Assembly: GCF_008124605.1 (NCBI RefSeq)
Contig: NZ_VRYN01000006.1
Coordinates: 1 to 56,181 of the forward strand
Length of the DNA stretch: 56,181 bases
DNA from: Halobacterium salinarum DSM 3754
Lineage (GTDB): Archaea; Halobacteriota; Halobacteria; Halobacteriales; Halobacteriaceae
Direction: 5' to 3'
Below the pieces are notes generated by a model. That model searched no databases. It was not told where the DNA came from and saw only the letters and a program-made list of their open reading frames with translations. The number at the start of each line of letters is the position of its first letter. Position 1 is the stretch's first letter. Positions 1 through 11,746 of this stretch are shown piece after piece. A program made the position numbers and the translations under genes.

Positions 1-1335
1 CGGATCGAAGAGCAGCAAGAGCGGATCGAAGAACTCGAAACACGTCTCCGGAAGTACGAGAATCCACACACTCCACCCAGTAAGCGACGGTCGGGGACCG
101 ACGAGTCCCCGACCTCGCAGGACGACGAAGACGACGATGTCCGAACTGATGGTGGTACTCCCGGTCGAAAGGACGGTCACAACCCGGAGTGGCGCTCTCC
201 GCCCGATCCTGATGAAGAAATCGAGGTCACCTCTGACTGTTGTCCCGAGTGTGGCGACCACTTCGACGAGTCGGTGGGCGTCAGCCCCCGACTCGTCGAG
301 GAAGTCCCGGATCCACAGCCACCAGAAGTCACCCAGTACAACCGACACCGCTACCAATGCGACTCCTGTGGAACTGAGACGGTTGCGACTCACCCCGACT
401 GCCCCGATGAGGGGCAGTTCGGGGTGAACGTCATCGCGCAATCTGCCCTGTCACGGTACGATCACCGCCTTCCCTACCGGAAAATCACGGACCGCTTCGA
501 GCAACTTCACGGACTCGAACTCTCAGGTGCATCCGCGTGGCACGCGACCGAGCGCGCTGCGCGCGCCGGTCGCTGTGAGTACGAGCAGATCCGTCGAGAG
601 ATTCAGGAGGCTGAAATCGTCCACGTTGACGAAACCGGCATCAAGCGTGACGGTGACCAAGCGTGGATCTGGACGTTTCGGACGGACGAGCATACGCTGT
701 ACGCGGTCAGAGAGAGTCGTGGGAGTGATGTTCCCGCGGAAGTCCTTGGCGAGGACTTCGCGGGAACGGTCATCTGTGATGGGTGGACGGCGTATCCAGC
801 GTTCAGCAGTACGCTTCAGCGGTGCTGGGCACATCTTCTCCGGGAGGCTGAAGACGTTGCTAGTGACCACGAGGAGGCAGAACCGGTGTACCGGTATCTC
901 AAGCAGATGTTCGTCGGTCTCCAGTCGTGGCTGGAGACCGACCCAGATCCTCGTGCGAGAGCACAGATGCATCGAGCGTGTCAGGACGGCCTCAGATCGC
1001 TCGTTGAGCGGTCAGTGACCGACGAACCAGTGGCAACACTCCTCGGGAAGATCGAAGGTGGACTCGACCACTGGCTCACCTTCGTCGGTGAGCCAGCGGT
1101 CTCCCCGACGAACAATGCCGCAGAAAACGCCCTTCGTGAACCTGTTGTTCTCCGGAAAATCATCGGAACACTCCGGAACGACCGTGGCATGTTCGTTCAC
1201 GAGACGATCTTGTCCCTGCTGGCGACGTGGCGCCAGCAGGGACGCAACCCATACGAGGAACTTACGCGGGTTGTCCACGACAACGAAATGATCTCACGAG
1301 AGCAGACTGTGCCGGTTGTTGAGACCTCGGGGTAA
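1..1335 (+). CDS. IS66-family transposase, 5' end cut by window edge
   Basis: The reading frame is open from base 1, so the start codon lies outside the window. The visible part begins with a charged heptad-like segment (RIEEQQERIEELE), as in the IS66 leucine-zipper region. An acidic linker follows, then a zinc-binding pair of motifs (CCPECG near base 240 and CDSCG near base 361). The catalytic DDE core is seen as VDETG, CDGWTAY and NNAAENALR. This order matches IS66 TnpC-type transposases, which cut and join IS ends. Some annotations would start at the ATG at 274, but the conserved N-terminal zipper and first zinc motif lie upstream of it. No matching terminal repeat was found after the stop, so the IS boundary is undefined. 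An ABC permease gene starts only 46 bases downstream. Confidence 0.88.
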   Translation, partial: RIEEQQERIEELETRLRKYENPHTPPSKRRSGTDESPTSQDDEDDDVRTDGGTPGRKDGHNPEWRSPPDPDEEIEVTSDCCPECGDHFDESVGVSPRLVEEVPDPQPPEVTQYNRHRYQCDSCGTETVATHPDCPDEGQFGVNVIAQSALSRYDHRLPYRKITDRFEQLHGLELSGASAWHATERAARAGRCEYEQIRREIQEAEIVHVDETGIKRDGDQAWIWTFRTDEHTLYAVRESRGSDVPAEVLGEDFAGTVICDGWTAYPAFSSTLQRCWAHLLREAEDVASDHEEAEPVYRYLKQMFVGLQSWLETDPDPRARAQMHRACQDGLRSLVERSVTDEPVATLLGKIEGGLDHWLTFVGEPAVSPTNNAAENALREPVVLRKIIGTLRNDRGMFVHETILSLLATWRQQGRNPYEELTRVVHDNEMISREQTVPVVETSG

Positions 1336-1381
1336 ACACGTACCTTTTTTGTAAGTGCGGTGTAAGTATCCCAACACAATA

Positions 1382-5556: not shown

Positions 5557-6561
5557 TCACTCCTCAGTAACGAGCTGGGAAAGGGAACAGAAGAGATCGG
5601 TAAGCGTACCGTGGCGTGGTCTATCCGCCGGAGAGAACTGAACTGCCACAGCGTCGGCTTCCTCATGGACAGAGAGTGCCGAAACGGCATCACTTGGGAG
5701 ATCTACCCGAGCAGCCGCCGCTCCGGCAAGCCCAAGGTCTCGACGGAGCGCGGCTGCAAGTGTTGTGGTGGGTACCTGTGAGTCCAGCGTCATTGACACA
5801 CGAAGCTCTCCGTCGTCCGAGATAGCCCCATACCGACGTGTAACGTGGTCGTACACTGGCGGTTTCCGAACAGGGCTAACGGAGTTACACGGTAATTGAA
5901 TGTCGCCGAGGCTGAACCGAAACGGGGACTGTCGCTGGGTCAGGGAGTACGTCCGAAGAGTCGATTCGCCGATTGGGTCCGTGTCACCATGCCAGACTCC
6001 GATGGTGTCCGCGACGATCGACGGGTGACCGACGACGAACGCGGTCTCTGCGAGCACGCTCCCGGCCGTTTCCCCGGTGGTGTACATTGGCCGACCGTGG
6101 CGCATCTCAGCCTGGCGGTCGGTGGAACTATCGACACCGACGAAGTCAGCGAAGTGTTCTTCCGTCCAGTTTGCCCAGACGACGACCGCACCACGACCAC
6201 CGGCAGAGCCGATGAATGCGAGTTTTCCGATGCGCGACGCATCGACAGCCTGGGACGAACCCGTGGACATCAGCCTACGGAGTCGAGCGGGAACTGAAGC
6301 AAACGGAAGAGCTTCGGCGACGGATCCGGCGACGGCACGGACAGGCTCCGGAGGCTCTCCTCGGTTGATCTGAGCCACGGCGAGTGTGTCTGCACTCGCC
6401 GGAATCGTTCCGGCGGTAAGGTCATCAGCGCCGAGTTGGGTGGAACCAGTTGCGTTTCCGTTGACGGTGATGGCGTCAGTGCCGAAGGCTGCGACACTCC
6501 CGCCGAGTATGACGCTACCGGCACCCGCGAGGACTCGCCGTCGTGACTTACCGGATGGCAT
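5557..6561 (-). CDS. Tat-exported protein of unknown function
   Basis: About 334 residues from the ATG at 6561. A TTG 12 bases upstream gives a longer frame but is less likely. The N-terminus is a twin-arginine signal ([23 protein letters not shown]), typical of haloarchaeal secreted proteins folded before export. The rest is a soluble domain with no motif I recognise. It has several TxxAxA-rich helices and a segment [23 protein letters not shown] near the end that suggests a repeated two-domain fold. It stands alone between a decayed antitoxin gene and a small membrane protein. Function unknown. Confidence 0.7.
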
Positions 6562-6873
6562 TTTTTCTAACAAGTAGACAGATATCTAAATAACTTGCTG
6601 TCAGGGATTCTCTCACCCCCAATTTTCGATCAAGGCATCTAACTCACCCGTGTTCGGGAACCTGTGAGACAGGCCCGTACTCGTGGGGAAACCAATCGTC
6701 GCAATTCTCCTCGCTGGGAACCGTGGAGGTGCCGGAAGTTGCATTTCGTTGATGTCAGCTTGGGCCTCTGCGAGCAGTTCGTCAGCCCCCCATGTAGTCG
6801 ATCAGGTTTCGTCATAACTATGTGGTTACAAGTATCCACTGTCTGGAACGGTTATTAGAGAATATTTGAAACG
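6562..6873. other. Divergent intergenic region
   Basis: It separates the minus-strand Tat protein from the plus-strand small membrane protein and should hold both promoters. The A/T-rich stretch just upstream of 6561 (about 6575-6600) suits the first, and TATTAGAGAATATTTG (about 6852-6867) lies just before the second. No gene seen. Confidence 0.4.
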
Positions 6874-7104
6874 ATGGTAAAAAACACACTAACAGACGTT
6901 CGAAACGAGCTTGAAGAGGATCTCCGTCGTCCACTTCTCGGATACACGCTTCTCGGCTTGACAACCGGAATCAGCGTGTTAGCGACCGGAGAGTTGCTTT
7001 CGGCAGCAGCAGTCCCAGAGTCCGTCGTCGTCGCAGGTGTCCTTCTCATAGCGGGTGCTGTACCGACGTTCACGTGGTACGTCCTTCGCAAACTCGGACT
7101 CTAA
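6874..7104 (+). CDS. Small membrane protein, hypothetical
   Basis: 76 residues. A charged amphipathic start (VKNTLTDVRNELEEDLRR) is followed by two hydrophobic helices at about 22-44 and 47-70 and a short basic end. The hairpin of two helices with a cytosolic N-terminus suggests an integral membrane protein. Codon use is normal for the genome and the ATG follows a TA-rich promoter-like stretch. No family recognised. Confidence 0.6.
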   Translation: MVKNTLTDVRNELEEDLRRPLLGYTLLGLTTGISVLATGELLSAAAVPESVVVAGVLLIAGAVPTFTWYVLRKLGL

Positions 7105-7508
7105 CCCATCCACATTCCACTCTCTGGTACGAACAAAACCTATGTGACTGTATTTCTTGCTCGTGGTAAATTCGCTCAGTTCTGGCTAGTATGGTTGCTT
7201 AATTGGTAATTCGTAGATTTCCAAACGCAGAATCTGTGCTCGAAAGTGACTGCATTCTATATATCAATATAAGATTTATTAGTCGTTCGATAGCTGCTGG
7301 GCACAGCGTGCTAGCTCATTGGTATGTAGAGAATAGCTCTCACCCAAATGAGTGTGATTAATTACTGCGCTAATCACACCCAATCTTTACAGAGCTAGCG
7401 CTGGCAATAGCTGATTACCGATGAAATCAAGGCAGTACGAGTCGCTACGGCAGCCCTGGTGGCGAGTCGACGCTAACACACGGGATCGGTCTGGTCGGGG
7501 GAATCACG
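7105..7508. other. AT-rich region upstream of the integrase
   Basis: A 400-base gene-free stretch, markedly richer in A+T than its surroundings between about 7130 and 7440. It contains the nested inverted repeats listed separately. It may be an element boundary, attachment region or promoter region for the integrase. Confidence 0.5.
7310..7399. repeat. Nested inverted repeats upstream of integrase
   Basis: The outer arms are GCTAGCTC (7310-7317) and GAGCTAGC (7392-7399), a perfect 8-bp match that extends with one bulged base (CAGCGT before the left arm, GCTG after the right). Inside is a perfect 9-bp inverted repeat GTGTGATTA (7352-7360) and TAATCACAC (7371-7379). Possible roles are recombinase arm sites, an operator, or a cruciform. 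The repeats are visible directly; the role is not. Confidence 0.6.
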
Positions 7509-8771
7509 GTGTCGCATAACAAATCCGGGACTCGGATCGAAGCGAGCTTCCAGCCATATCTCCGAGACATCGGCAAGGGTCGCGACGGAGGGGGCGGCCA
7601 TTACCGGCGGAACGTCGAGCGAGAGCTCAATCAATTCCGTGACTGGGCAAGCGGTGACGGAGGACCGGACTCATGGGTCGGAGTTGTTCCGGCGGCTGAC
7701 AGCCGCGAGCCACGGTTTAGCGACCTCTCTGAGACGGTGTTCCGCGACTATGCACGGCATCTCGCCAACGAGCGCGGGTTGAAGCAAAACACCACACAGA
7801 CGTACTACGCTTACCTGTCCTCGTGGACTGGGTGGTGTGTGACGGAGGGATATCTCGATGTGCACTACGCGAAGCGCTCGACAGCTCGGGGACCACTGCC
7901 GGACGACGATGGGCGCCGCCCTGGAGATCAGCAAGCATGGAGTCCGGATCACCGTCATCAGCTCACTGAATTCGTGACAGAACAGTTCAAAACCGCACTC
8001 CAACAACACCGTCAGACAGGTGCGGAGTCACCGGAGCGCGCCAGCAGCAGGTATTACGCGATCAAGGCGGCACGGGATAGAGCGCTCGTGTACGTGGTTG
8101 CCTACACCGCGGTTCGAATCGGGGAACTGCTCCGAGATCCATCCGATCCTCGTCGACGGGGGCTTCGGTGGGAAGAAGTCAACGTCGACGACGGAAGCAT
8201 CACCGTCTACCGGAAAAAGCAGCAGTGGGATACGGCAAGTCTGCCGGATCCAGTTGTCCAGCCACTCGAAGCATACCGGACTCTGCTCGATCCGCCCTCG
8301 GACCGTTGGCCCGTCTTCCCGACGTTTAGCCCGCGGAGTCTGGGGAACCTGCTTCGAGAGACGCTGGCCGATCGGGGGGTCACCGACGCGGAAATCGAGC
8401 GTCGCCGGGCAACCCATGCACGTGACTTGTTGTTGGCGCTTGATGAGAACGTTCGGCCACAGTCGATGACCACGAAAGGGGCGCGAAACGTGCTTGACCG
8501 CCTCACCGACGCGGCTGACATCGATGTTTCGGATCCGAACCACGACTATCTCGCGCCCCATGGTGGGCGTCGCGGGATGGGGGAAATCCTCGTGCGGTCG
8601 TTCGGGTATACCGTTGCAGCTCGGTACCTGGATAACTCCGAGGAGATGGTTCGACAGCGGTATTCACACATCGAAGCCGGGAAGCTCGGTGATAAGGCTA
8701 CAGCGGGGATCGAAGACGTGGACCCGGCGCCGCGTTCGTGGAATGGAGACGAGGACAACCCCTCGTCATAA
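7509..8771 (+). CDS. Tyrosine recombinase / integrase
   Basis: 420 residues from a GTG start at 7509. The N-terminal half holds a SAM-like core-binding region (FRDYARHLANERGLKQNTTQTYYAYLSSW). The C-terminal half has the catalytic set: Arg203 in AVRIGELL, His351 and Arg354 in HGGRRG, and the nucleophile Tyr385 in RYSHIE. This is the haloarchaeal phage/XerC-like integrase class, which carries out site-specific integration or excision. It sits beside the nested inverted repeats and ahead of the RdfA/SMC-like pair, which suggests a mobile or formerly mobile segment. No att duplication could be identified by eye. Confidence 0.92.
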   Translation: MSHNKSGTRIEASFQPYLRDIGKGRDGGGGHYRRNVERELNQFRDWASGDGGPDSWVGVVPAADSREPRFSDLSETVFRDYARHLANERGLKQNTTQTYYAYLSSWTGWCVTEGYLDVHYAKRSTARGPLPDDDGRRPGDQQAWSPDHRHQLTEFVTEQFKTALQQHRQTGAESPERASSRYYAIKAARDRALVYVVAYTAVRIGELLRDPSDPRRRGLRWEEVNVDDGSITVYRKKQQWDTASLPDPVVQPLEAYRTLLDPPSDRWPVFPTFSPRSLGNLLRETLADRGVTDAEIERRRATHARDLLLALDENVRPQSMTTKGARNVLDRLTDAADIDVSDPNHDYLAPHGGRRGMGEILVRSFGYTVAARYLDNSEEMVRQRYSHIEAGKLGDKATAGIEDVDPAPRSWNGDEDNPSS

Positions 8772-9122
8772 ATTATATACCGCGATATCTTTTGCCTGGG
8801 TGCTGTTTGGATAGGGTCCTTTGCGCGTGCCTGCAAAGCGCACAGCGTTCAGCATGGAAGGTCGCTCGTATCTGTATACGGGTCATGGACCAGACTCCCG
8901 CATGAATTTGAGACATAGTAAGTCTGTCCCAGATTGCGGTTCGATCCATCCACGGGACGTAGGAAGCCAGTGAATACACTCTCAGCAGCATTTCCCAATA
9001 AAAGCGACAACGTTCAACTGAAGCACGAGAGTGTCGATCACCCCCGACAGACGATGTACAGCGAGTCGTTCGGACACGTCCGACCCGCCTCTATGGTGCA
9101 CGACCGAATGCAACGGTCGCTG
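8772..9122. other. Gap between convergent integrase and SMC-like gene
   Basis: No gene supported. It includes a short inverted repeat TCGGAC/GTCCGA near 9068-9081 and TTTGC/GCAAA near 8820-8837. A stretch near 8938 that looks like a T-loop does not form a tRNA arm. Confidence 0.35.
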
Positions 9123-11012
9123 TTAATTCGTGATTTGAGGGTGGTCTCTCGACTGGGCTGTCTCGTGTGAGATGACATCCCAGTGTTCCGGTGACACCGT
9201 TTCACCGTCGAACGATCCAGCTTCGGGATACGCGGTTGTCACCAGGATCTCGGCCGTGTTCTCTAGATACTCGATCATGTGCCGAATGTGTTCCGCTGCG
9301 AGCTGTCCGATACCATCCAAAAGAATGCACGGAACCCGGTCGCCGACACTGAACGTTCGGTAGCCCGCCAGCGCCGTCACGATCCCAACCAGCTCGCGCT
9401 CCCCCTCGCTGAGAGTGTCTAAATCGGTTGTGTGGCCGTCGCGCGCCAGATTGATTTCGAATCCGACAGTGTCGTTTGCATCGGTCTTCTGGTCGAGGTA
9501 CGCCCCGTCAAAGCCGGGTGCGAACCGACCGATGATGTCCGCCATCGCTGCGTCGAACTGGTTGACGAGCTCGTTGTACTTCTGTTTCCGGCGCTGTCTG
9601 AGGGTTTCAAGCTCGTCTCGCTTCGTCTCCAGCTGTTCTTGGCGGTCGTTTCGCTTCTGCAGTTCCGCTTCGATACGCTCGAGTTCGGCTTGGGCTCGAT
9701 CCAACTTGGTTTCCGTGCTGCCGATCTTCTGCTGGATCGTTTTCAGTTCGGCGCTGTGCGATTCGCCCGCCTTCTCAGCCGCTTCGTACTCGGCTTCGCG
9801 TTGTTCGATCTCCGCCTGAAGCTCCTCGATGGTCGCTTCGATCGACCGGACCTCGTGTTGGTCCTCCTGAATATCGACGCGGAGTCGTTTGATCTCGTCT
9901 TCGAGCTCTGCCTTTTGCTGTCGCTTCGACTCGATCTCACGCGTTCGTTGCTGCATCTGAGTCACCTCCTCGGTGAGCGTGGCCCGCTGTTCCCGCAACG
10001 ATTCCTGTCGGTCACTGATCTCGTTCAGCCGCTCGGTGACCGCTTCCGCCGTGGTCTCCGCGCCGCAGACGAAACACGAGAACGTGTCCCCGGAGAGGGT
10101 GCGTTCGACGTCCGTTATGAGATCTATTTCTCCCTCGTCGATGATCGCCTTGGTGCTGCGGTGGAGATCGTCAAGCAGGTCGATTTTCACTGCTAATTCG
10201 TCGATTCGGGTCTGCTTTTCGGCGATGTCCGCCTCTGCTGTGGGGGAGTCTGGGATGTCGAGTGATTCGAGCGCCGCCTCCTTGTCGTCGAGTTGCGCTT
10301 TCCGGCGGTCGACCTGGTTTTCGAGGCGTTCGAGGCGGGCCTCCTCGCGTTCGAGATCCGACTGTTTGGCCGTCAGTTCGTCCCGGAGGGCGCGCTGATC
10401 GGTTTCTTCGTCGACCTTACGTTCGAGTTCGTCACGTGTCTCGTTGAGGTCGCGAAGCTCCCCTTGGAGCCGCGTCACTTTCTGCTGTGCCGCGGGCAGG
10501 TCCGCGGAGGCGGCTTCGGCTGCGGCGACTTCGTCTTCGAGCTCCTTGATCTCGCGTTGGAGCGCCTCGATACGCAGGTCGATGTTCTCAGTCTCAAGCG
10601 GCTTCTTCAAGAGCTCGGTCAGGCGTTCTTGGTTTTCCTCCCGCACGGCGGCACGGATGGGATTGTCCTCGCCCAGAACAGCAAACAAGCGAGCAGCGAT
10701 CTGGTCTTGGTCTCGTGTGAGATATGGCGTTCCGCTGCGCGAGATCGCGGGTTCGTCGCTGTCGGTCGCTCGCGTGAGAGAGACGGTGTACGTCTCTTCG
10801 TCGGTTTCAAGCGTGACCTTGCCGTCGTCTTCGTTCTCCATCAACGGGTGATCCTCTGTGAGCAGCCCGGTGGTTCCGATTGCGGTCTGGATCGCAGCGA
10901 GGAAACTCGATTTGCCCTGGAAGTTCGAAGCTTGAACGATGTTTGGGCCGGGGCGCAGTGTTGCCTCGCCGGAACGAATGCCACCGATGCAAGTTACATC
11001 TACGTTCCACAT
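9123..11012 (-). CDS. Archaea-specific SMC-related ATPase (Sph/Rad50-like) with zinc hook
   Basis: 629 residues from the ATG at 11012. An earlier start at 11060 lies upstream of the likely TATA element (TTTATTAT about 30 bases before 11012). The domain order is an N-terminal ATPase lobe with a Rad50-like P-loop (ASNFQGKSS), a long coiled coil very rich in E, K, R and Q, a central CxxC hook (CFVCG, Cys313 and Cys316), a second coiled coil, then a C-terminal lobe with signature LSEGERELVG and Walker B ILLDG. The usual Walker B glutamate is replaced by Gly. Members of this family pair with RdfA genes, and one such pair (RdfA/Sph3) has been reported to affect rod shape in Haloferax volcanii. Here it lies 104 bases downstream of an RdfA-like gene on the same strand. 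Confidence 0.9.
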   Translation of the reverse strand: MWNVDVTCIGGIRSGEATLRPGPNIVQASNFQGKSSFLAAIQTAIGTTGLLTEDHPLMENEDDGKVTLETDEETYTVSLTRATDSDEPAISRSGTPYLTRDQDQIAARLFAVLGEDNPIRAAVREENQERLTELLKKPLETENIDLRIEALQREIKELEDEVAAAEAASADLPAAQQKVTRLQGELRDLNETRDELERKVDEETDQRALRDELTAKQSDLEREEARLERLENQVDRRKAQLDDKEAALESLDIPDSPTAEADIAEKQTRIDELAVKIDLLDDLHRSTKAIIDEGEIDLITDVERTLSGDTFSCFVCGAETTAEAVTERLNEISDRQESLREQRATLTEEVTQMQQRTREIESKRQQKAELEDEIKRLRVDIQEDQHEVRSIEATIEELQAEIEQREAEYEAAEKAGESHSAELKTIQQKIGSTETKLDRAQAELERIEAELQKRNDRQEQLETKRDELETLRQRRKQKYNELVNQFDAAMADIIGRFAPGFDGAYLDQKTDANDTVGFEINLARDGHTTDLDTLSEGERELVGIVTALAGYRTFSVGDRVPCILLDGIGQLAAEHIRHMIEYLENTAEILVTTAYPEAGSFDGETVSPEHWDVISHETAQSRDHPQITN

Positions 11013-11116
11013 ACTCTGAGTTCTAGTTAGATCGATAATAAAAGGAGCGATGTTATACACTCACTAGATGATCCGAGCCGCGGAAACAATAGCGTACTAA
11101 CAATAACCGGGGCGTT

Positions 11117-11746
11117 CTAGGCCACGTCGGAATGGGCTCGACAGATGAACCCACGTGTTCGTGCACGGCTGAGCCGGGTCTGCGTAGAACACCCGTCAAC
11201 GTGGCACTGGAGAATAATCTGTGTTCGTACAGTGGCGTCCGCGCCGTTCGGAAGCTCTCCCTTTCGGTCAAGGGATTGGAGCACGTCTTCGATGTTCGTC
11301 CGCATCGTGTCCCGCGCGTATTCGATCTTATCCGATTCCCAGTCGCTGTTCGAGCGCTGTTTGCTTTTGTTCGCGCCGAGACACTGGGTGAGATGGCGGT
11401 ACATCGTTGATCGCGTGGCGAAGTCGGTGGTGAGCTCCGTTCCGTCGATCCCGTCGTCCGCGAGGTCGTCGATGATTTCGCCGCGCGTCACCGCGTCGTC
11501 TGATTGGAGGGCATCGTACTCTGATTGGATGTGGACGTCGATCGCCTTTCGGTTGTGGCTGTCGTAAACCGATTTCAGCAGCTCCGTGTTGAACCAATCC
11601 GTAAGCGGTCGTGTAGCAGTCTCAGGGAAGCCGTGGTCACCAACCCAGCGTGCCGCGAGTTCCTCGTCGAATCCGTCTTCGATGGCGCGCTCCCCCAAGT
11701 CGTAGGTGGCGATCGTGCGCCCGATCTTACAGCAGTGGTCCGTCAT
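11117..11746 (-). CDS. rdfA: RdfA-like (rod-determining factor family) protein
   Basis: 209 residues from the ATG at 11746. It shows the family layout as I know it: a short N-terminal motif (KIGRTIATYDLG), a helical middle with FNTELL and a charged segment (SKQRSNSDWESDKIEYARDTM), and a C-terminal zinc-ribbon-like end with Cys/His residues (QCHVDGCSTQ then FICRAH). It lies directly upstream of the SMC-like gene on the same strand, which is the usual gene pair. The Haloferax volcanii member is reported to be needed for rod cells. This copy sits next to an integrase, so it may be an accessory paralogue with another job. Family assignment is from pattern memory. Confidence 0.75.
   Translation of the reverse strand: MTDHCCKIGRTIATYDLGERAIEDGFDEELAARWVGDHGFPETATRPLTDWFNTELLKSVYDSHNRKAIDVHIQSEYDALQSDDAVTRGEIIDDLADDGIDGTELTTDFATRSTMYRHLTQCLGANKSKQRSNSDWESDKIEYARDTMRTNIEDVLQSLDRKGELPNGADATVRTQIILQCHVDGCSTQTRLSRARTRGFICRAHSDVA

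Follow-up and report, generated by a model that had tools for sequence, protein, structure and literature searches.

Is an rdfA gene that is paired with a gene for an SMC-like protein, and that lies next to a tyrosine integrase, a mobile copy of a cell-shape system? The pair occupies positions 9,123 to 11,746 of a 56,181-nucleotide stretch of Halobacterium salinarum DSM 3754 (contig NZ_VRYN01000006.1; the whole stretch analysed is called the window). A first-pass annotation, made from the sequence alone, took the pair for the RdfA/Sph3 rod-shape determinants of Haloferax volcanii, in a copy that might be mobile. In the Sph and RdfA trees, the pair is placed as a Sph1-type paralogue and not as an RdfA/Sph3 pair. 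The reading favoured here, with a probability of about 0.6, is that the locus is the known two-gene rdfA-sph1 module of the haloarchaeal Sph family, carried on a large plasmid, serving the host late in the cell cycle, and not cargo of the integrase. Both sph1 and its annotated partner rdfA are already known.

The two families were assigned correctly in the first-pass annotation, and its gene calls and coordinates for the SMC-like gene, rdfA and the nearby integrase hold (Table 1). Sph1 matches the ASRP model NF045487 with 458.7 bits (curated cut-off 300) and has the hallmarks of the ASRP/Sph family, an N-terminal Walker A motif (NFQGKSSF at residue 30) and a zinc hook (CFVC at residue 313) within the coiled coil. 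RdfA matches PF21811 with 112.8 bits (gathering cut-off 27). The draft genome that holds the window contains one RdfA match and one ASRP match above the cut-off, both of which are this pair; 27 weaker ASRP matches include the SMC and Rad50 genes. The sph1 start is the RefSeq ATG at 11012 (MWNVDV), and an earlier open reading frame opened 48 bases upstream with a GTG at 11060.

Bases 1-24000 of the window are 100.0% identical to NZ_CP038632.1, the 148 kb plasmid pHSAL1 of H. salinarum 91-R6, and by this identity the window is H. salinarum large-plasmid DNA. In the R1, NRC-1 and 91-R6 records, the pair is annotated as rod-determining factor RdfA and SMC-like protein Sph1 and lies beside genes of the arginine deiminase pathway. 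An arginine-tRNA ligase gene and pyrBI are on the same pHSAL1 segment. The R1/NRC-1 protein (OE5212F; named Hp71 in PMC9389158) is identical to the window Sph1 over 629 aa and has the same immediate neighbours. The R1/NRC-1 plasmids differ from the window at its left edge, where their match ends at an IS66-type element, with no difference in protein. A Natrinema pellirubrum plasmid carries a 100.0% identical copy of this element (window 1-1344). Strain R1 carries a second pair, rdfA-sph2, on plasmid PHS3; it is flanked by a universal stress gene and by trkA-type and kdp genes (L096, 6084-16197).

A search with the window RdfA matched 249 of 292 genomes of the class at E 0.001. Two genomes of the genus Halobacterium that are listed as 99% complete (G003 and G006) have no RdfA match. 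To collect the Sph1-type loci, named genomes were scanned with a Sph1-type alignment by means of two peptide patterns, of which the first stops just short of the Walker A glycine-lysine and the second includes LSEGE; 77 of 180 pattern stretches were confirmed, giving 67 loci. The other group was collected via its RdfA, irrespective of Sph motifs. The trees contain 100 rows, 73 of the Sph1 type (the window included) and 27 of the other group (the Sph proteins of L096 and of 26 of the 33 comparison regions L195-L227); 97 rows differ, and some plasmid rows duplicate genome rows. Three Sph1-type fragments shorter than 500 aa (L156, L162 and L164) were dropped from the trees and the motif census. 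The seven comparison regions in which no Sph gene was found near the RdfA, and intermediate RdfA matches (about 28-36% identity), are outside the trees.

In these quick trees, for which SH-aLRT (Shimodaira-Hasegawa-like approximate likelihood ratio test) is the only support measure, the Sph and RdfA proteins split into the same two groups with support of 100 and 99. Distances in the two trees are correlated (0.97 overall, 0.89 within the Sph1 type and 0.77 within the other group) under a permutation of tips that leaves shared ancestry uncorrected. For both proteins, the window pair is on the opposite side of the tree from a Haloferax rdfA-sph3-HalOD1 locus (L196). This locus stands for Sph3 by synteny, with a HalOD1 protein encoded downstream of its sph gene, as has been described for rdfA-sph3-ddfA of H. 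volcanii; H. volcanii itself is outside the set. The window Sph1 has 25.9% identity with the L196 protein, compared with 61.9% for its nearest relative, from Halosimplex pelagicum. The window groups with Haloferax Sph1-type loci, at about 36% identity, and Haloferax HVO_A0180 has been called the orthologue of OE5212F (PMC7824242). A published tree also puts Sph1 apart from Sph2-4 (PMC11276520). The window pair shares with the H. volcanii RdfA/Sph3 pair (HVO_2174, HVO_2175) the two families and the gene order, but the Sph3 identity proposed in the first-pass annotation is not congruent with either tree. That annotation had named tight clustering with the chromosomal shape-determining copy, together with absence from mobile regions in relatives, as evidence against itself. 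The outcome is mixed, in that the pair clusters apart from that copy and is found on plasmids.

The pairing itself is, across the 67 loci, general in the Sph1 type. An rdfA gene is present within 0.9 kb of 65 of the 67 Sph1-type genes, on the same strand in 60 cases and on the opposite strand in five. The two genes overlap by 3 bp in 16 pairs and are separated by 2-3 bp in 15. The two loci without rdfA (L156 and L164) are both sph fragments. These figures are in line with published adjacency in 24 genomes, where 42 of 54 RdfA genes and 42 of 50 SMC-like genes are adjacent (PMC10869688). Clustering of the neighbours gave many antisense reading frames inside sph and real neighbours of several kinds. 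Five of the 22 Sph1-type neighbour clusters were searched in Pfam; three are amidohydrolases or aldehyde dehydrogenases, two are without a match, and no recurring partition or defence gene was seen beside the pair in this sample. In one locus (L080), a ParA family gene is about 7 kb from the pair. In L232, L233, L235 and L238, the pairs lie amid genes for universal stress proteins, antiporters, potassium uptake and amino acid permeases.

Table 1. Positions, in the window, of the rdfA-sph1 pair, its motifs and its neighbours
Feature	Position	Strand	Remarks
sph1, SMC-like protein Sph1	9123..11012	-	629 aa; NF045487 ASRP match; annotated sph1 in identical plasmid records
Walker A N30-FQGKSSF-37, lysine K34	10902..10925	-	motif census of aligned rows
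Zinc hook C313-FVC-316	10065..10076	-	motif census
ABC signature motif LSEGERE (534-540)	9393..9413	-	motif census
Walker B CILLD-G (562-567), glutamate absent	9312..9329	-	motif census
rdfA, RdfA family protein	11117..11746	-	209 aa; PF21811; 104 bp upstream of sph1
C-terminal Cys3His ribbon (C181, C186, C202, H205)	11132..11206	-	inferred zinc site
Tyrosine integrase	7509..8771	+	420 aa; neighbour, not judged part of the sph1-rdfA system; PHROG match; strain-variable distance to sph1
Nested inverted repeats	7310..7399	n/a	upstream of the integrase; not counted as part of the sph1-rdfA system

The ATP site separates the same two groups. The Walker A lysine is kept in all 73 Sph1-type rows and is replaced by arginine in all 27 others. 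The signature motif reads L/M-SEGE in 73/73 Sph1-type rows and LSESE or LAESE in 27/27 others. The Sph1-type signature census is partly circular because one of the locus search patterns contained LSEGE. Since 64 of the 73 rows come from the pattern scan, which touches two of the census motifs, weight falls on the nine rows obtained free of patterns (the window and eight plasmid loci), every one of which has GKS and LSEGE. The zinc hook CxxC is present in 97 of the 100 rows (70/73 Sph1-type, 27/27 others). The first-pass annotation was right about the zinc hook (C313-F-V-C316) and about a Walker B motif lacking glutamate (CILLD-G567). This absence is not special to the window protein, as 99 of the 100 aligned Sph rows also lack the glutamate; it is, in this alignment, a trait of the Sph family. 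Glutamate follows the Walker B aspartate in a single row (L144). The residue in this position is G in 54, R in 8, D in 5, Q in 4, E in 1 and N in 1 of the Sph1-type rows, and S in 27 of 27 rows of the other group. The SMC and Rad50 of the same genome retain the glutamate (DE). Sph1 (D-G) thus does not have a full SMC/Rad50-type catalytic site, which is not counted against its Sph membership. The word Walker is absent from PMC10869688 and PMC11276520. PMC9389158 mentions the Walker A and B motifs of ASRPs, and the passages concerned draw no distinction between Sph1 and the others.

The AlphaFold2 model of Sph1 has a mean predicted local distance difference test score (pLDDT) of 86.0 and a predicted template modelling score (pTM) of 0.58. 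Its top Foldseek match is the Rad50 complex 7zr1 (E 5.5e-17). By motif and model, Sph1 combines a head of the SMC/Rad50 type, in which Walker A is intact, with a zinc-hook coiled coil, and it has no Walker B glutamate. The head domain and coiled coil are common to Sph1, Rad50 and SMC, and the zinc hook is common to Rad50 and Sph1 (PMC9389158). Sph1 differs from both in its missing glutamate, in the lack of an annotated Mre11 gene beside sph1, and in length: it has 629 aa, compared to open frames of 923 aa for Rad50 and 1197 aa for SMC in the same genome.

In its AlphaFold2 model, RdfA consists largely of helices and has a small ribbon in its C-terminal part (mean pLDDT 89.1, pTM 0.62). The structure alignments comprised the window proteins with 50 of 62 RdfA references (L102 and L104 were additionally left out) and 44 of 64 Sph1 references. 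The three ribbon cysteines are invariant in 100/100 RdfA rows. The fourth ribbon residue follows the division seen in Sph, being His205 in 73/73 Sph1-type rows and part of a CxC in 27/27 others. The differences between the window pair and the Sph3 side therefore include lysine versus arginine in Walker A, LSEGE versus LSESE in the signature and, in RdfA, His versus CxC. A hydrophobic C-terminal tail follows the metal ribbon in 27 of the 100 RdfA rows by a simple hydropathy cut; these rows are of the Sph1 type (e.g., L112, L124, L137 and L161). The tail, possibly a membrane contact, is present in the RdfA of Haloferax Sph1-type loci and absent from the window RdfA.

Overproduction of Sph1 results in elongated rods in H. 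salinarum and rods in Haloferax volcanii (PMC7824242), and the Sph1 transcript and protein are regulated over the cell cycle (PMC1906763), with a peak at septum formation (PMC5120986). Haloferax RdfA and Sph3 are required for rods and motility (PMC10869688); a 2026 paper gives the opposite phenotype for Sph3 (PMC13286277). For this gene, the influence on cell shape suggested in the first-pass annotation is on record under overproduction. The gene conversion defects of all four Haloferax sph mutants (PMC11276520) are also counted in favour of the module. In the proposed mechanism, Sph1 would dimerise through its zinc hook, and ATP binding would draw the heads together into a clamp. We propose that this clamp is long-lived because ATP hydrolysis would be slow in the absence of the Walker B glutamate. 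RdfA would be a dedicated accessory subunit that works with the head or with DNA, and the complex would act late in the cell cycle on the organisation of DNA or the envelope; on this proposal, excess Sph1 elongates cells because of that role. The pair would be located on a plasmid yet serve the host.

Several results weigh against this reading. Deletion of the Haloferax Sph1 gene, HVO_A0180, leaves a shape much like that of the wild type (PMC11276520), so the overproduction phenotype may be indirect. A Sph1-type RdfA, judged by score, is present in 2 of 13 Halobacterium genomes and is not universal in the genus. Seven of the 33 other-group RdfA regions have no Sph gene nearby (group-specific profile, E 1e-10), and RdfA therefore does not always need an adjacent partner. 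The RdfA model has no confident fold match in the PDB (no Foldseek match at E 0.001 or better); the best VIA Z was 4.0 over 47 residues, and no profile match among PDB sequences was significant. The role of RdfA is thus read from its linkage alone. The contact between RdfA and Sph1, ATP binding by Sph1 and slow hydrolysis are steps that we infer.

The integrase is convergent to sph1, about 350 bp from the sph1 stop. It is annotated as a site-specific integrase and matches the PHROG integrase phrog_1 (7.7e-9); its score against PF00589 (25.6 bits) is just under the Pfam cut-off of 27.1. The nested inverted repeats reported in the first-pass annotation are present upstream of it, with inner arms GTGTGATTA/TAATCACAC at 7352/7371 and outer arms GCTAGCTC/GAGCTAGC at 7310/7392. 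When treated as a single pair of 27-nt arms, they have 19 of 27 matches; 40 mononucleotide shuffles of the surrounding sequence gave no more than 17. In a test with 10-nt arms, the best pair (9/10) does not exceed 20 shuffles (8 to 10). Across 13 Halobacterium plasmid records, the distance between sph1 and the integrase is about 350 bp in six, about 6 kb in six and 58 kb in one. These records are not independent, as NC_002608 and NZ_BK010831 have the same length and positions and NZ_CP128378.1/.2 are versions of one accession. Strain GSL-19 has a block of about 5.5 kb between sph1 and the integrase; a 5.5 kb block in this position (L229, about 5857-11390) is present in some Halobacterium plasmids and absent from the window. 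In L229 and L045, where the distance to sph1 is changed, the integrase keeps the block 7203-8807 with it.

This variable linkage bears on the idea that rdfA-sph1 travels with the adjacent integrase as an integrative element that alters the shape of a new host. The idea draws on the integrase and inverted repeats adjoining the pair in the window and on the sparse presence of the Sph1 type in Halobacterium, and also on the occurrence of relatives in near-identical segments of 9-22 kb across genera and families. Halohasta litorea and Halorubrum laminariae (L100 and L108) are 99.5% identical over 21.8 kb that carry a Sph1-type pair, and two further comparisons cross a family border: Halobellus clavatus with Halosimplex salinum (98.9% over 9.3 kb) and with Halorarius halobius (97.7% over 16 kb). 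The Sph1-type pair thus appears, by these identities, to move between genera and families inside larger segments. Such segments reach far beyond the pair, however, a pattern that plasmid transfer would be expected to give. Six of the 13 records have the integrase next to sph1. Its relatives are near 2 of the 67 Sph1-type loci, of which 17 have shortened flanks, and near one of the 33 comparison regions. Among 16 plasmid loci from outside Halobacterium that are annotated (8 kb flanks; the unannotated L078 was left out), one (L083) has an annotated integrase. The integrase profile, built from the window integrase and its relatives alone, may miss distant tyrosine recombinases; a motif scan added none. 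The integrase family is common on plasmids, with 253 records at E 1e-20. A search for att-like direct repeats gave two imperfect pairs of 17-20 nt, neither of which plausibly flanks rdfA-sph1. As the integrase is not a stable neighbour either in Halobacterium or in the family, it is no evidence of a self-mobile unit. The integrase looks incidental to the pair, and a self-mobile element, rejected as the main explanation on the 13 records, 67 relatives and 33 comparison regions, is highly improbable. The pair is nonetheless carried on a plasmid.

A role in the upkeep of DNA, in which the pair would serve chiefly in the recombination or gene conversion of polyploid replicons and the change of shape would be secondary, is possible but doubtful. 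All four Haloferax sph deletions lower survival in a gene conversion assay and an smc deletion does not (PMC11276520), and SMC heads, Rad50 among them, are closest in fold. These points are set against the requirement of Sph3 and its RdfA for rods and motility, and no Mre11-named gene was seen at the 16 annotated non-Halobacterium plasmid loci; one metallophosphoesterase is about 5.5 kb away in L080. An SMC-type system against plasmids or viruses, like Lamassu or Wadjet, is hardly credible. Sph1 does match the PADLOC LmuB profile PDLC03859 (7.4e-20), and its Foldseek matches include chains of Lamassu LmuACB and Wadjet JetABC, but at ranks 14-16 and below, and Lamassu comes after Rad50, MukBEF and SMC chains. 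At E 0.1, neither RdfA nor the integrase matches a PADLOC family. No Lamassu or Wadjet effector or accessory gene is annotated in the flanks of the R1, NRC-1 and 91-R6 records. Most neighbours at the 16 plasmid loci are hypothetical genes or genes for metabolism, transport, stress and regulation, and a few are transposases; single Fic (L233) and PIN-domain (L081) proteins are among the neighbours, and no known defence system is recognisable by product name. Two scans of viral contigs gave no confirmed relative of RdfA or of Sph1, and phage records contained no relative of either. The defence role suggested in the first-pass annotation found no positive support beyond the similarity of the SMC head to LmuB. 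The host-serving rdfA-sph1 module is retained as the best explanation.

The census also allows a wider, rather unlikely, interpretation. The haloarchaeal Sph family may be an SMC-fold lineage without fast ATP hydrolysis, its members being nucleotide-gated or nucleotide-free scaffolds that resemble a cytoskeleton more than a DNA motor, with the RdfAs as co-evolved adaptors and with Sph1 as the member that keeps ATP binding. This loss of hydrolysis is suggested because 99 of the 100 rows are without the Walker B glutamate and the shape-setting Sph2-4 group also has the Walker A arginine and a changed signature; the arginine group has D-S in Walker B. As a finding, the pair adds little, since the gene has been studied and its partner annotated. 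Potentially more useful are the ATP-site split between Sph1 and the others and the agreement of each Sph with its own RdfA, which allow one to ask whether an SMC-like protein without ATP hydrolysis determines the shape of archaeal cells.

A minor observation concerns Rad50. In another locus (L004, 150-1346; G000:C13), a 398-aa open reading frame corresponds to the first part of a haloarchaeal Rad50 and is next to a partial Mre11 match; a fuller Rad50 exists elsewhere in the same genome. The partial Rad50/Mre11 may be a divergent second pair, a remnant or an effect of assembly.

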